Part shown: piece after piece, positions 15,896 through 38,482 of the stretch | Layout: the number at the start of each line of letters is the position of its first letter | Position numbering within the stretch: the stretch's first letter is position 1 | Assembly: GCA_015039365.1 (NCBI GenBank) | Contig: WION01000087.1 | Span: 114,723-178,722 of the forward strand | Direction of reading: 5' to 3' | Length of the DNA stretch: 64,000 nucleotides | Source: Amanita rubescens | Taxonomy: Eukaryota; Basidiomycota; Agaricomycetes; Agaricales; Amanitaceae | Notes under the pieces: generated by a model | Database searches by the model: none | Seen by the model: only the letters and a program-made list of their open reading frames with translations | Told to the model about the DNA's origin: nothing | Made by a program: the position numbers and the translations under genes

Positions 15896-18800
15896 CTAGT
15901 ATGAAAACCAATCAATGAGCTTTACCTTTGTCTTTCTTGCACTCATCACATCCATCTCAAGTCTCTCTGCCTTATCCCAGCTTTCCTGCTTCCTGTATGT
16001 TGATGCCAAATTGGCCATGATGATGAGAGTGGATGGGTGGTCTGATCCAAGTGTTGTTTTGTATGCATTCATCACATCCATCTGAAGCCTTTCTGCCTCA
16101 CCCCACCTTCCCTGATACCAGTATGTTGATGCCAAAATGCCCATGATGTTGAGAGTGTCTGGGTGGTCTGATCCAAACTTTGACTTTAATCCATTCATCA
16201 CATCCATCTGAAGCTTCACTGCCTCATCCAACCTTCCCTGATGTCTGTATGTGGATGCCAGGTTTCCCATGCTGATGAGAGTGTCTGTGTGGTCTAATCC
16301 AAGCTTTGCTTTTAATGCATTCATTACATCTGTCTGAAGCTTCTCTGCCTCATCCCACCTTTCCTGATTCCAGTATGTTGTTGCCAAATTGGCCATGCTA
16401 GTGAGAGTGTCTTGGTGATCTGGTCCAAGGTTTGTTTCATATGTGTTCATCACATCCATCTGAAGCTTCTCTGCCTCATCCCACCTTCCCTGATTCCCAT
16501 ATGTCAATGCCAAATTGGCCATGCTCATGAGAGTGTCTGGGTGGTCTGGTCCAAGTTTTTTCTTTTTTGCATTCATGACATCCACCTCAAGCTTCTCTGC
16601 CTCATCCCACCTTCCTTGATTCCAGTATGTTGATGCCAAACCATCTATGATGGCAAGAGTGTCTGGGTGGTCTGATCCAAGCTTTGTTCTCCTTGCATTC
16701 ATCACATCTATCTGGAGCTTCTCTGCCTCATCCCACCTTCCCTGATTCCTGTATGTTGATGCCAGGTTATCCATGCTGATGAGAGTGGATGGGTGGTCTG
16801 GTCCAAGCTTTGCACTCCTTGCCTTCATTACCTCCAACCCAAGCTTCTCTGCCTCATCCCACCTTTCCTGTCTCCCATATGTTGATGCCAAATTAGCCAT
16901 GCTGGTGAGTGTGTGTGGGTGGTCTGATCCAAGCTTTGTGTTGAATGCATTCATCACATCTATGTCAAGCTTTTCTGCCTCATCCCACCTTCCCTGATTC
17001 CTATATGTTGTTGCCAAATTGGCCATGCTGGTGAGAGTGTCTGGGTGGTCTGATCCAAGCTTTGTTTTGAATATGTTCATGACATCCATCTGAAGCTTCT
17101 CTGCCTCACTCCACCTTTTCTGATTTGAGTATGTTGATGCCAAATTGGCCATGGTACTGAGAGTAGATGGATGGTCTGATCCAAGCTTTGTTTTGAATGC
17201 AGTCATTACATCCATCTCAAGCTTCTCTGCCTCATCCCACCTTCCCTGATTCCTGTATGTTGATGCCAAATTGGCCATGCTGGTGAGAGTGTCTGGGTGG
17301 TCTGAGCCAAGCTTTGTTTTTCTTGCATTCATGACATCCATCTGAAGCTTCTCTGCCTCATCCCACCTTCCCTGATTCCAGTATGTTGATGCCAAACTAT
17401 CCATGCTGGCAAGAGTGTCTGGGTGGTCTGATCCAAGCTTTCCTTTGAATCCATTCATTACATCCATCTCAAGCTTCTCTGCCTCACCCCACCTTCCCTG
17501 ATTCCTGTATGTTGATGCCAGATTAGCCATGCTGGTGAGAGTGTCTGGGTGGCCTGATCCAAGCTTTGTTTTTCTTGCACTCATCACATGCATCTGAAGC
17601 TTCTCTGCCTCATCCCACCTTCCCTGATTCCAGTATGTAGATGCCAAACTGGCTATGCTGGTGAGAGTGTCTGGGTGATCTGATCCAAGCTTTATTTTGA
17701 ATGCATTCATCACATTCATCTCAAGCTTCTCTGCCTCATCCCACCTTCCCTGATTCTCATATGTTAATGCCAAATTAGCCATACTGGTGAGAGTGTCTGG
17801 GTGGTCTGATCCAAGCTTTGTGTTGAATGTATTCATCACATCCATCTCAAGCTTTTCTGCCTCATCCCACTTTCCCTGATTCCTGTATGTTGAAGCCAAA
17901 TTGCCCATGCTGGTGAGAGTGGATGGGTGGTCTGATCCAAGCTTTGTTTTGAAAGCATTCATCACATCCATCTGCAGTGTCTCTGCCTCATCCCACCTTC
18001 CCTGATTCCAATATGTTGCTGCCAAGTTGGCCATGCTGGTGAGAGTGTCTGGGTGGTCTGATCCAAGCTTTATTTTGGATACATTCATAACATCTATCTC
18101 AAGCTTCTCTGCCTCATCCCACCTTCCCTGATTCCAGTATGTTGAAGCCAAATTGGCCATGCTGGTGAGAGTGTCCGGGTGGTCTAGTCCAAGCTTTATT
18201 TTGAGTGCATTCATCACATTCATGTCAAGCCTCTCTGCCTCATCCCACCTTCCCTGATTCCTGTATGATGATGCCAAATTGCCCATACTGGTGATACTGG
18301 ATAGGTCATCTGATCCCAGCCCCATTTGGAGTCCATTCACCACATCCATGTCAAGCTTTTCTGCCTTATCCCACTTTCCCTGATTCCTATATGTTGATGC
18401 CAGATGGGACATAGTGGTGAGAGTGTCTTTGTGGTCTGATCCAAGCTTTGATTTTCTTGCATTCATGACATCCATCTGAAGCTTCTCTGCCTCATCCCAC
18501 CTCCCCTGATTCCAGTATGCCATTGCCAAATTGGCCATGCTGGTGAGAGTGTCTGGGTGGTCTGATCCAAGCTTTGTTTTTCTTTGATGAACTACAACAT
18601 GTAACAATTGTTCCCCCTCATCCCAGCTTGCAGCACGATCAAATACAAATGTAAATCTTGCATGTTCATCATCATAATACCTGCTGTTCAATTTTAATCC
18701 CAATCCATGCAAAATATTTGACCTAATGTGTGGTGCAAGTGATTGACAGAATTCATAATTATCAGAATACCAGTCAGGAGCTATTGAACAGGATAACAGT

Positions 18801-33796: not shown

Positions 33797-36700
33797 ATGA
33801 CTGTGTTGGCATCCTCATTATCTGACTGGTACATATTAGGTACAGATGAGACACATGTTAAAATGCTCAGGGAACAATACCTATGCCAACATTTTCGCAT
33901 CATTGTCATAGGGAGGGCTAATGCAGGCAAGACAACCATCCTTGAGAAGGTTTGTGGTGTAGCAAAGGGGACAAAGCCCATGATATATGACAAGGATGGT
34001 AAGTCAGGCTGAACATTGTGCTTCTATGTATTCAATTCCATGTAGGTGAAGAACTGGATGCATCTGCAACTCATTTGATGGCATCAATTCAGGTGCACTT
34101 AATGACAATGTATGAATGTGCCTACTCATACTATGCATTAATAACAGAGAGGCCTACATGATATTGAACATCAGATTACATACCCTGGGTGTAACTTTAT
34201 CTTCCATGACTCTCAGGGATTTGAATCTGGTTCTACTGATGAGTTGGAGCTTGCTTGGAATTTTATTGAGAAGAGGTCTGCAGAAACTGAGCTACAAAAT
34301 CAGTTGCATGCAATTTGGTATCTTGATTTCTCCATTTACATGACTATCTGACTAGGCTCCTGATAGGTACTGCATACCCATGGACAGTCCTCGTCCCATT
34401 CTACCTGCAGAACTTGAATTTTTCAATAAAGGGACAGGCAGTGGTAAGTCCTAATAAATTCATTTCTCATCTTGTTTGTTTTACAGAGATTATTTACCTT
34501 GACTATTGTTCTTCCCCCCTTTCCATTGGCTGAATTACTAAGCACTAATCCATAGTGTACTGACTAGTAAATTACAGTTCCTTTGGTGGTTATATTTACC
34601 AAGTTTGATGGTCAAATAGCCTGTGAATTTGTCAATTTGACTGATGCAAACTTGAAGGATGAAGATAAGTGGGAGACAGCCAGGGAGATTGCTGAAATCA
34701 CTTTTCAGAAAGTTTATCTTCCTAAAGTTTTGGATGCTAAATATCCTCCCAAGGCATATGTGCAATTGGAAGGTGAGAATGATAATTTTTAAATGAAAAC
34801 AGTGTAGCATTGTTTCATAGACATGGATCTACCAGAGAACAATTGTGTTGATTTAACTCAGCAAACTGCTGATGCAATAAATGATGACACTATGCATCAG
34901 CTGTTTGTTTCAACACAGATGAATAACCTTGACCTTTGTGTTACATCTGCACTTGAGTGAGGGCCACATTCAAAATGTCACTCACTACCATTGACATTGT
35001 TCAGTCATGTTCTTAGATTTACTGGCTGTTGGACATGGGATGATGTCATTCTCACAGTTTTTTCAAAATTTCCACATTTCTGGGTAGGCATTTTTGTCAA
35101 ACGGCACATCAGTATAGAAATAATGAATGGCAATAGGTGGACAGGGGGGTAGGTGGCCTTCATATGGAATGATAAATGCTTGCAAAATTGATCAGGAGGT
35201 AAGTGACACTCCAATGCCTTTACAAGAAAACAAGATCAGTCATGCCTCAGATGGCCAATGAACAACTAAGTGAAACACAGGTTAGTTATCATTACATTCT
35301 TGGTGGCAGGATCTGATATCATTGATCTCAGTGGGTGAGTGACATTGAACAAGCATAAATCTGATATATTGTCTCATGACAACAGTTTGTGAGTAATGCT
35401 TTGGTTTTCTGATCAGCAGTCTTGACCCATAATCTACAGGAAGTGAGTGACATTAATTTTGATTTTTATTATCTCATGATGCATGATATGATCAACAGCA
35501 AGTGAGTAAATCTATCATTGTGAGCAGACTTGTCAATCCAGTCTCTTGTGGACAGGGAGTGAGTAATACAATGCTGCCTCACACCACATCTGACCTGCTT
35601 AAAGAAAGTAAGCAACATTGATAGTTTTGCAGTTTATCAGACATATGTAACTCAATGAACAACAGAATGTTGGTGACATACTTTTATATAAAAGAGTCTC
35701 AACAAATTTCATTGGATTAATATGTAATAGCAAGTAAGTGACATTTCCTTTCTGTCTTCTTACAAACAACACTATGTCTTGTCTCAAAACAACATTGAAC
35801 AGGCAGTAAATATTTCTCCTTTTCAAAACCTCTTCACAAGCTACTGCAAAACAAACAGGGTGTATGTGATACTTTTGATATGCAAATTTATGATATGAAA
35901 TACTAAGGAGAAAAGAGAGTTAGTGGCATTGTTCTCTTTCTTCCCAATTCATTACACTAATTTCATTCTAAAAGGAAGTGAGTGTGCTGACCACTGCTGC
36001 AAGATGATTTGGACAATGCTTTTTTTTGTTCTACAGCTTGTGAGTGATGTTCTATTTTTTGTGAAAAGCAGTGAAATCACATCTTTTCCTCTACACATAG
36101 GAGGTTAGCATCATATCATGCTGGTTTAGTGGTTCAAAAGATGTCCTTATCAAAATTTTGCATATGGCTAACAGTTTGTGAGTAACATTACAAACATTTC
36201 TGGAAATCTGCTCCATGTATTTTTCTCCTATAACAACAGTATGTGAGTGACATTGAAGGTTTTTGTGATATCTTTTCCTATGTCCAACAGGGAGTGAGTG
36301 ACATTGTGCATTTTGTGAATGGTAATCTCATCACATCCTTTCCTATGACCAATAGGTTGTGAGCAACATCATGCACTTAGTGAAAGGCAGTCTGATCATG
36401 TCTTTTCCTATGACCAACAGAATGTGAGTGATATTCACATTTTGTGAAAGGCACTCTCTTCACATCCTTTCTTATGACCAACAGGGAGTGTGTGACATTC
36501 CACATATTGTGAAAAACAGCCACATGACTAACTTTTCCATTTACCAACAGGGAGTGCGTGACATTCCACATTTTTTGAAAGACTGTCTCATCACATCTTT
36601 TCCTATGACCAACTGTCAGGGTGTGAGTAACATTCCACATTGTGTGGAAGGCAGTCTCATCACATATTTTTCTATGACCAACAGGGAGTAAGTGACATTG

Positions 36701-38482
36701 CACATTGTGTAACAGACAGTCTCATCACATCGTTTCCTATGACCAACAGCATGTAAGTGATATTGCACATTTTGTGTAAGGCAGTTAGTTTCATCACATC
36801 CTCAGTCTGTGAGTGACATTGCACATATTTGTGAAAGGCAGTCTCAGTATGATGAACAGCTTGTGAGTGACATTGACACTGTGAAATGCATCTCATCACA
36901 TCTTTTCCTATGACCAACAGGGAGTGAGTGACATTGAACCTTGGTGAAAGGCATCTTTTCCTATGACCTACAGAAAGTAAGTACATTGCACATTTTGTGA
37001 CAGGTAGTCTTATCACATCTATGATCAACAGCGAGTTGGTGACATTGCACATCCTGTGAAAGGCAGTCTCATCACATCTTTTCCTGACAAACAGCTTGTG
37101 AGTGACATTCCACATTTTGTGAAGGCAGTCTCATCACATCTTTTCCTATGACCAACAGGAAGTGAGTAACTTGAACATTTGTGAAAGGCAGCCTTATTAC
37201 ATCTTTTCCCATGACTAACAGTCTGTGAGAGTGACATTGCACATGTTATGAAAGGGAGTTTCATCACAACTTTTCCTATGCCCAACAGCTTATGCCTAAC
37301 TTTGCACATCCTGTGAAAGGCATCTCATCACAACCTTTCCATGACCAACACTGGGGAGTGAGTGACATTGCTCATTTTGTGAAGGGTAGTCACAACTCAC
37401 ATCTTTCATATGACCAACAGATTGTGGGTGACATTCCACATTTTGTGAAAGGCCATCTCATTACATCTTTTTTTATGTATAACTAGCAGAAAGTGAGTGA
37501 CATTGCTCATTTTGTGAAGGGTAGTCACAACTCACATCTTTCATATGACCAAAACAGATTGTAGGTGACATTCCACATTTTGTGAAAGGCCATCTCATTA
37601 CATCTTTTTTTATGTATAACTAGCAGCAAGTGAGTGACATTGTGAAATGCTGTGTCATCACATCTTTTTTATGACCAACAGGGGGTGAGTGACATTGCAA
37701 GTATTTGTGACAGGCACTCTCATCACATCTTTTCCTATGACCAACAGCTTGTGCGTGACATTGCAAACTTCCTGACCTGCATTCTCAGCATACCTCAATT
37801 TACATTACATCCTATGTATATCTCAGAAAGTGAGCATGTTTTCCATGTCTTTTGTTTACATTTTACTTAACATTATAGATTGTAAAATTTCATTTCAGTT
37901 CCCACATATGATTGTTTCTCTTACTTATGACATTCTTTATTTTCCAGGTGAGTGATCCTTGTTCATGAGGCATTGATTTTCACCTCAATTTGCATGCTAG
38001 TGTGTAGGCCTGGTGACATTAGATATTTTACTCCTTCTCATAAGCAGCATGAACTTTTCTCCATGTTTGGGGGGACACAGGCAAAGTTTGCAGGCAAGGT
38101 ATTTTTGTCCCTTTTTGGGGGGGATAGTGCATAACTCATGTCATTGCAACAAGCTTACTGATTGCCAAGTCTTAGTTTGTAAATTATTCCTTTTCATTGC
38201 ATGCATTGATGCTTAAACTTTGAAGCAATTGTTATCATTGCCAAGCTATCCTTTTGGATCAATAAACCATTTCTACCATCAGTCACAGAAGCCTTGGATC
38301 AATACAAGCAAAAGGGCTATGTTCAGAAACTCAAGACCAACATTCAAGTTATTCCTGACTTTATGGACTCTGATGTTGATGAAGATGTTATCACATTACT
38401 CTATAGGCAGGTGACTTGCATTGATGGTTTGTCTTTGTTTAGTCATGCACTACTAGCTTATGAACAATTTAAGGCAGGGTGA
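33797..38482 (+). CDS. P-loop GTPase with a central array of single-codon exons
   Basis: Fungal G-domain protein; G1 GRANAGKTT, G3 DSQGFE and G4 TKFDG are clear. Exons: 33797-33998, 34046-34092, 34148-34317, 34367-34443, 34578-34772, 34821-34956, 35017-35083, 35145-35198, 35251-35280. All junctions keep frame and exon 9 ends in phase 0. Then follows the array of 40 three-nucleotide exons and one 69-nt exon (35332-37881). A further exon, 38048-38098 (HELFSMFGGTQAKFAGK), and the last, 38246-38482 (LSFWINKPFLPSVTEALDQY to the stop), are also in phase 0. The array-derived segment would be about 63 residues in a protein of about 480. Alternative: the whole 35281-38047 region is one very long intron. 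A third option is two separate genes, but the shared phase speaks against that. No biological role for the variable segment can be read from sequence. Confidence 0.7.
35281..37878 (+). repeat. tandem array of 41 intron-like units separated by 3-nt spacers
   Basis: Every unit starts with a 5' splice site (mostly GTGAGT, also GTAAGT, GTTAGT, GTGCGT, GTTGGT) and ends in YAG (mostly CCAACAG). The next unit begins exactly three nucleotides later. Spacer starts: 35332, 35386, 35440, 35499, 35556, 35605, 35666, 35731, 35813, 35859, 35916, 35975, 36037, 36101, 36175, 36240, 36291, 36356, 36421, 36485, 36551, 36620, 36685, 36750, 36806, 36860, 36921, 36974, 37032, 37095, 37159, 37222, then 37421, 37490, 37558, 37627, 37682, 37748, 37827, 37879. 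Unit lengths run from 43 to 79 nt and vary freely modulo 3. Spacers: GGA most often, then CTT, AAA, GAA, CAA and others. None is a stop codon. Units after ~36243 share the core GTGAGTGACATT...CATCACATCTTTTCC; earlier ones are diverged inside but keep both ends. Confidence 0.9.
37289..37357 (+). other. exonised array unit (69-nt in-frame exon)
   Basis: Here the unit has lost its donor (ATGCCT at 37292 instead of GTGAGT) and its acceptor (CACTGG before 37355 instead of CAACAG). The acceptor at 37288 and the donor at 37358 remain, so the expected exon is 69 nt, 23 codons. It is open in phase 0 (LMPNFAHPVKGISSQPF...HWG) and has a stop in phase +1. This independently supports phase 0 for the array. 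Confidence 0.6.

Follow-up and report, generated by a model that had tools for sequence, protein, structure and literature searches.

The stretch of DNA analysed here, referred to as the window, comprises 64,000 nt of contig WION01000087.1 (positions 114,723 to 178,722) of the mushroom Amanita rubescens. Its forward strand carries a predicted GTPase gene with a tandem array of single-codon exons in its middle. The array (35281–37878) consists of 41 introns of 46–76 nt, 40 single codons and one open 69-nt exon. Exons of three nucleotides have been known singly, as curiosities. We consider it highly probable that A. rubescens has here a GTPase gene built in this way, its codons likely being spliced one by one.

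A first-pass annotation of the same DNA had described 41 units of 43–79 nt, each with a donor at its start and YAG at its end, joined by 3 nt with a single 69-nt exception. The number of units and their starts were reproduced (GT in 41 of 41); the lengths had to be corrected to the range given above, and the ends are CAG in 34 introns and TAG in four, the remaining three ending in AAG rather than YAG. The exons that follow the introns are indeed 3 nt long in 40 cases and 69 nt long in one (37289–37357). Intron length leaves a remainder of 0, 1 or 2 on division by three in 16, 11 and 14 cases, respectively. This spread over all remainders indicates that only the spacer is constrained, as had been proposed. 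The longest chain of 3-nt spacers in the array region has 32 links, compared with at most two for control spacers of 1, 2 and 4–9 nt in the same region. Elsewhere in the window (1–33000 and 43001–64000, both strands), chains of 3-nt spacers reach a maximum of two, and 300 dinucleotide shuffles of the array region gave a mean of 1.15 and a maximum of 4. A chance origin of the array is excluded.

The array triplets, which start WFEQGKNQAGRELEFYG..., include no stop codon and continue, in phase 0, the open frame of the GTPase exons that precede them. This frame runs through ten predicted exons and contains a P-loop GTPase (Table 1). The 69-nt exon is open as well in L009, an allele-like copy of the window locus, where it has frame-keeping 3-nt indels (L009 compared by eye).

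The GTPase domain is predicted to span 33840–34956. A Pfam scan of the 302-residue N-terminal part gave only weak matches to MMR_HSR1, Arf and DUF2326, the first two below their curated cut-offs. The best named matches of the GTPase are A. rubescens proteins, with A. brunnescens, A. polypyramis and A. muscaria among the other species that have listed homologues. In an alignment of 14 loci, the exon starting at 35005 has a 3-nt insertion relative to its paralogs. Paralog versions of the exons starting at 38048, 38154 and 38226 read HEFFSMFG..., PTDCQVLV and SIIIIAKLSFWINKPF..., respectively. The array is predicted to encode a linker that joins the GTPase domain to a C-terminal domain, itself predicted to be helical. 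In the intron after the last array codon (37882–38047), TTTCCAG directly abuts GTGAGTG, a possible zero-length exon or recursive splice site; CAG/GTGAGTG is found at the matching place in two further loci, L040 and L041.

Table 1. Features of the array gene in the window.
Feature	Position	Strand	Remark
GTPase domain exons	33840–33998, 34046–34092, 34148–34317, 34367–34443, 34578–34772, 34821–34956	+	predicted; P-loop GRANAGKTTI
Exon ending FTGCWTWDDVILTVFSKFPHFW	35005–35083	+	predicted
12-nt exon VDRG	35137–35148	+	predicted
Single-codon exon GAG ahead of main array	35196–35198	+	predicted
30-nt exon MANEQLSETQ	35251–35280	+	predicted
Main array: 41 introns, 40 single-codon exons, one 69-nt exon	35281–37881	+	predicted reading WFEQGKNQAGRELEFYGVNGGGGHSLGKRLES(LMPNFAHPVKGISSQPFHDQHWG)IKIQGLKI
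69-nt open exon	37289–37357	+	one unit, inner splice sites lost
51-nt exon HELFSMFGGTQAKFAGK, 3' of array	38048–38098	+	predicted; homologous to DELFSMFG... of P0121
25-nt exon LTDCQVLV	38154–38178	+	predicted by homology to PTDCQVLV of JGI proteins
C-terminal exon IVIIAKLSFWINKPFLPSVTEALDQYKQKGY...	38226–38426	+	predicted; 3' end uncertain

Array codons in JGI protein records

Searches with the tails of array genes led to JGI proteins located on short contigs. One of these, P0121 (156 residues, contig of 2,135 nt), reads LSFQFQPPPVSIRSLRQVELESRLEWLFRGEVVTEKQQSLSDMMEVSQKLQQVGEQQFQQFCLKI followed by CDELFSMFG.... It is identical to the array of the sister locus L041 at 59 of 65 residues, in order, across 58 genomic exons, 57 of which are 3 nt long and one 6 nt (GAGTGG, encoding EW); the longest identical run has 28 residues. 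The L041 array occupies 5,021 nt of the genome, more than twice the length of the whole P0121 contig. The alignment score of P0121 is 247 with L041, 218 with the near copy L040 and 50 with the next array, and 500 shuffles of the L041 codon order gave a top score of 88. The possibility, raised in the first-pass annotation, that position 35280 is joined straight to 38048 is contradicted at L041 by P0121.

A second protein, P0130, reads QLQSHL/EA/G/DQQ/E/L/SEIFSIFG, which corresponds codon by codon (by eye) to the final codons of both the L026 and the L031 array. The extra DQQ is explained by the acceptor TAG/GACCAACAG, 9 nt upstream of the usual one, the TAG being found in both the L026 and the L031 intron. 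The residues SHHIFSYDQQ come from translation of the 3' end of an intron that was retained, and P0130 thus contains one alternative acceptor and one retained intron end. At the other side of the array, the GTPase continues into WFEKGKKESDREIEYDG in P0001 and into WFEHGKKDTDKQIVYDG in P0011, with near-identical versions of MANEQLSETQ leading into array codons. These four joined proteins cover both array ends.

As far as intron-free reading frames go, the array triplets are exons. Since the protein record of the sister locus shows 57 one-codon exons joined, the codons of the window copy are likely to be spliced one by one into mRNA as well. The GTPase gene with some 40 single-codon exons in its centre, as first proposed from the window, is supported by the open GTPase frame that leads into the array, by the homology of its tail to spliced JGI proteins and by the sister-locus codons joined in genomic order.

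A spliced 81-nt query in a non-exhaustive DNA search for an intronless retrocopy gave five matches in the genome, each to the 30-nt exon only. A tail search with a composite of L014 gave 356 candidates, none at E≤0.01. P0134 and P0135 were considered as further evidence and left unused; they match none of the arrays read, and their best C-terminal matches in the genome reach at most 74% and 67% identity, respectively. P0045, P0048 and P0051, known only as JGI proteins, have a different linker.

A gene family and its splice signals

Beyond the single locus described in the first-pass annotation, the window gene is one member of a large family. In the 75.7-Mb genome (786 contigs), the unit DNA is matched 249 times, and a search with the C-terminal exon gave at least 150 scored places among 219–226 candidates, many of which may be array-less relatives. 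We fetched 33 further loci (L009–L041, alleles included), most of them picked for the unit and six (L035–L039 and L041) for the C-terminal exon. Arrays are present in all 33; with the window, the 34 loci contain 1,802 parsed triplets, and the longest unbroken single-codon run has 86 (L020). The P-loop, the conserved block at the 5' end of the array and the C-terminal exon all lie within the fetched stretch in 21 of the 34 loci; the other 13 are without one or two of them, and some of the stretches end early. Of the 33 further loci, 31 have the P-loop or the conserved block, and the remaining two have the C-terminal exon of the same GTPase family.

The first fifteen array codons are recognisably common to the loci; in the 19 loci where this block is complete, the commonest reading is W F E Q G K K E T D R E I K Y. 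Between close paralogs, this block differs clearly less than its own introns do (0.051 versus 0.111 differences per site, 91 pairs). In L033 (C295), hypervariable codons begin straight after the fifth conserved codon (WFEQG), and the variable array seems to stand in place of most of the block. L029 and L030 (C190 and C229) have long old arrays in which 6-nt, two-codon exons (for example CAATCT and CAATAT) occur amid the one-codon exons.

The non-redundant counts (frame stops, periodicity and splice signals) omit the allelic copies L015, L016, L019, L021, L022 and L032, which leaves 28 of the 34 loci for the splice-signal counts; L041 is omitted in addition from the tally of donors and acceptors and from the commonest block reading given above. 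Among 1,646 parsed triplets, TAA and TAG do not occur and TGA was called 15 times, 12 of these calls being artefacts of spacers other than 3 nt and three being real (L009, L025 and L036). Stops would make up 7.2% of the one-step neighbours of the observed triplets. When the triplets are joined in frame 1, stops number 4 in 1,572, and in frame 2, 178 in 1,572. Spacers are 3 nt long in 989 of the 1,059 scored.

Donors are GTGAGT in 956 and GTAAGT in 85 of 1,327 parsed introns, and acceptors are CAG in 1,106, TAG in 133 and AAG in 88, the parser itself having demanded a GT or GC donor and an AG acceptor. The GT donor and YAG acceptor are those of spliceosomal introns, and intron removal is indicated by the intron-free P0121 and P0130. 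Of 980 triplets, 48 would introduce a cryptic AG or GT where they meet the intron (AGN, NAG, NCA or NTA ahead of the donor G, and NGT), compared with 411 expected for the same amino acids at the codon usage of ordinary exons. The reference for this usage was the 302 GTPase codons of the window plus one C-terminal exon from 24 loci, and the sites are non-independent; with the window GTPase codons as the sole reference, 397 are expected versus the 48 observed. TGA triplets and the first 15 and last two triplets of each locus are omitted from this count. Array arginine is encoded by CGA in 123 of 134 cases (0 of 9 in the ordinary exons of the window) and array glycine by GGA in 100 of 107 (1 of 14).

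These results bear on the explanation that the array is a satellite with splice-like ends, removed in one piece, whose triplets are not exons. The program TRF does call the window array a tandem repeat, and the units of young arrays are near-identical, as a satellite would have them. However, stops and junction-damaging triplets are rare, and the prevailing 3-nt spacing is kept in the window array despite its strongly differing units; that spacing outlasts the divergence of the units, unlike in satellite decay, had already been argued in the first-pass annotation, and this holds. P0121 and P0130 contain translated triplets in order; on these a satellite without splicing was rejected, and for L041 it is already contradicted. 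We regard a satellite as extremely improbable.

Similar introns and hypervariable codons

A further feature that the first-pass annotation did not contain is that the introns of young arrays are nearly identical and their codons hypervariable. In 651 units, selected to deviate from the consensus intron at no more than 12 positions, the intron columns have 0.02–0.43 bits and the three codon columns, which lie outside this selection, 1.35–1.78 bits (loci L001–L008 were dropped, as they overlap fetched loci). An identical 62-mer accounts for 322 of the 1,572 introns parsed. The per-site diversity of codons within an array lies at 0.31–0.73, both where the 62-nt introns show 0.0% difference and where they show 23%. 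We aligned 16 locus pairs; the change per site is 20–67 times higher in codons than in introns in five and 4–12 times higher in three. Five older pairs have ratios of 0.6, 0.8, 0.9, 1.1 and 1.6, and three near-identical pairs are without codon change.

The array of L020 contains an internal duplication of 18 units (units 39–56 and 57–74), marked by common unusual introns. Since the duplication, 5 of 18 codons have changed (11 of 54 nt) versus 3 of 1,119 intron bases (Fisher p 2e-13, with sites treated as independent), and three of the five altered codons differ at all three bases. It is unlikely that point mutation, acting at the rate seen in introns, produced these changes. A scan for further internal duplications with at least three common marker introns found only this one, in L020 and in L021, which is a copy of L020.

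The codon changes could stem from short-tract gene conversion with other units as donors, or from a mutator that targets the junctions. The codons of older arrays diversify no faster than their introns, which favours recombination, as this needs identity. Recombination is not favoured by the near absence of codon runs common to unrelated loci; triplet runs longer than those in 60 shuffles are common only to related pairs and in two short cases, L018/L025 (6) and L016/L029 (4). The linkage of intron variants with flanking triplets is mixed, with few pairs at p≤0.05 among the many tested. A targeted mutator, which would alter codons at junctions rather than copy them between units, draws on the same restricted sharing of long triplet runs, on the altered triplets of L020 that differ at all three bases while nearby marker introns are kept, and on L013, where 47 introns have six substitutions and no indel and yet 3 of 45 spacers are of the wrong length. 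The presence of every new L020 codon elsewhere in the array argues against it, as do the ratios of 0.6–1.6 in the five older pairs, which fit an identity-dependent process such as recombination. The mutator is possible but doubtful.

Another explanation of the near-identical introns is that introner-like elements inserted repeatedly into a normal coding segment. The 62-mer shared by so many introns is as expected of recent intron multiplication, and such elements are known in fungi (PMC4457414), in which many similar spliceosomal introns multiplied in one genome. However, the Amanita introns, in the fetched loci, lie in tandem, one codon apart, in one gene family. Insertion alone would leave unexplained both the exact one-codon spacing, repeated dozens of times, and the codon changes within the 18-unit duplication of L020. 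We consider it quite improbable.

Some copies of the family, perhaps including that of the window, are on their way out. Spacers of 0, 1, 2 or 4 nt occur at 3 of 45 positions in L013 (C13) and 17 of 45 in L018 (C749). As the L013 introns are almost untouched, breakage of this copy appears to lie at the junction and not in the intron. The window copy might accordingly be a decaying or silent paralog in a family that does use single-codon exons, its locus no longer being a working gene. Its transcript was not found in the JGI protein searches, one of its units has turned into the 69-nt exon, the allele-like L009 has a real TGA triplet and, as in L018, decay is clear at other loci. Against this, no stop interrupts the 40 window triplets or the 69-nt exon, all of which keep the frame of the upstream exons, and the 69-nt exon is open in L009 too, with 3-nt indels. 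We judge a silent window copy unlikely.

Several observations weigh against single-codon exons that are spliced one by one in the window gene, in addition to the missing transcript and the TGA of L009, which also parses only from the third conserved codon. That the JGI contigs represent RNA is inferred from their uninterrupted frames, their source being given only as JGI. P0121 is ∼90% identical to L041 in the C-terminal exon, and therefore comes from another allele or a close relative. None of the joined proteins has a single frame that leads from the GTPase across a long array as far as the C-terminus, and P0011 and P0125 are separate frames of contigs of 1,903 nt each. None of the arrays read matches the tail of P0001 beyond DG or the six residues with which P0130 starts, ahead of SHHIFSYDQQ. 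Stop avoidance is weaker evidence of phase 0 than it might seem, as stops are rarer still in frame 1; the stop test does not single out this phase, which rests on the upstream open frame. The rule for junction-damaging triplets was framed after the codon list was known. The conserved 5' block is only modestly less variable than its own introns (0.105 versus 0.125 differences per site without L033); with L033 included the values are 0.144 versus 0.135, and in pairs with the window 0.180 versus 0.146, that is, the block is not more conserved. Finally, the encoded array segment has no helical or amphipathic periodicity (mean z 0.06 at 100 degrees).

Relation to known systems and possible role

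Searches of open-licence PubMed Central papers turned up no description of one-codon exons arranged in arrays; what they listed on the genome and introns of A. rubescens dealt with mitogenomes and with another fungus. The nearest kind of gene appears to be the micro-exon genes (MEGs) of schistosomes and tapeworms, which have runs of tiny exons divisible by three that keep the frame when skipped and are hard for gene finders (PMC7653826, PMC10526429). An operational rule asks for at least seven exons, at least half of them micro-exons (<70 nt, divisible by three) and at least four of these consecutive (PMC7653826); the window gene, with 40 single-codon exons and the 69-nt exon in one run, would fall within it. 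The MEGs of Schistosoma mansoni have 10–20 short exons, mostly of 15 bp, introns that range from 100 bp to nearly 5,000 bp, and products that are secreted and have an N-terminal signal peptide (PMC10526429). In contrast, the Amanita arrays have unbroken runs of up to 86 shorter, one-codon exons and tandemly repeated introns mostly of ∼62 nt (46–76 nt in the window), and they occur in a mushroom and in a GTPase. By eye, the predicted product opens with the GTPase domain, and the annotated A. rubescens family members P0002 and P0008 start MAATTGAP, with no hydrophobic leader.

In evolutionary behaviour, the arrays are nearest to the WD40 repeats of Podospora het-d and het-e, which encode NOD-like receptors (NLRs) with high internal conservation; concerted evolution keeps these tandem repeats alike with some sites hypervariable (PMC12222747). 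Repeats kept alike and hypervariable codon positions are found in the Amanita arrays too. However, the Podospora repeat is itself coding, whereas the conserved repeat of Amanita is an intron and each unit codes for only a single codon; the N-terminal Pfam scan gave only the weak GTPase-type and DUF2326 matches, with no WD40 or other repeat domain and no NOD-type domain. Drosophila homothorax has a one-codon exon like those of the array, but as one alternatively spliced 3-nt micro-exon (PMC7392893). Immunity-related GTPases (IRG; Irga6, Irgb6, Irgb10 and GM4951) are also named among the closest systems. We rate the array architecture as categorically new; by the MEG rule alone, it would be a MEG variant. 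It is set apart because two features of the MEGs are lacking and because the conserved repeat is intronic with a one-codon payload.

Elsewhere in the window, a 126-nt tandem repeat with 21 copies (83% match) occupies 15938–18580. Translated from the minus strand, it resembles TPR or kinesin-light-chain repeats, and it might be the sensor of an NLR of the fungal type in which internal conservation is high.

The array likely serves as the linker of a GTPase whose hypervariable sequence is rewritten one codon at a time. As each unit would consist of an intron and one phase-0 codon, its gain, loss or skipping would keep the frame. The near-identical 62-nt introns of young arrays may allow recombination or short-tract gene conversion to shift codons between units, and selection for clean splicing and against stops would filter the moved codons. 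This would equip the GTPases with a hypervariable segment, which may serve in non-self recognition. In its fullest form, this account describes an immune-like GTPase family with a minisatellite whose repeat is an intron and whose payload is one codon; intron homology would swap, add or remove codon cassettes, splicing would build the hypervariable recognition segment, and frame-neutral skipping could give huge numbers of isoforms per locus. We are evenly divided on whether this full form is correct.

If the codons are spliced as proposed, the spliceosome would handle dozens of 3-nt exons in a row, which bears on the use of splice sites 3 nt apart. The annotations of P0002 (on the contig of L011) and P0008 (on the contig of L016 and L017) stop before the array, and similar arrays may therefore lie unseen in other genomes. 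The family points to a way of generating protein diversity in which recombination acts on a non-coding repeat and exchanges single codons. Its effect would be comparable to that of repeat-based recognition proteins, but with an intronic repeat.

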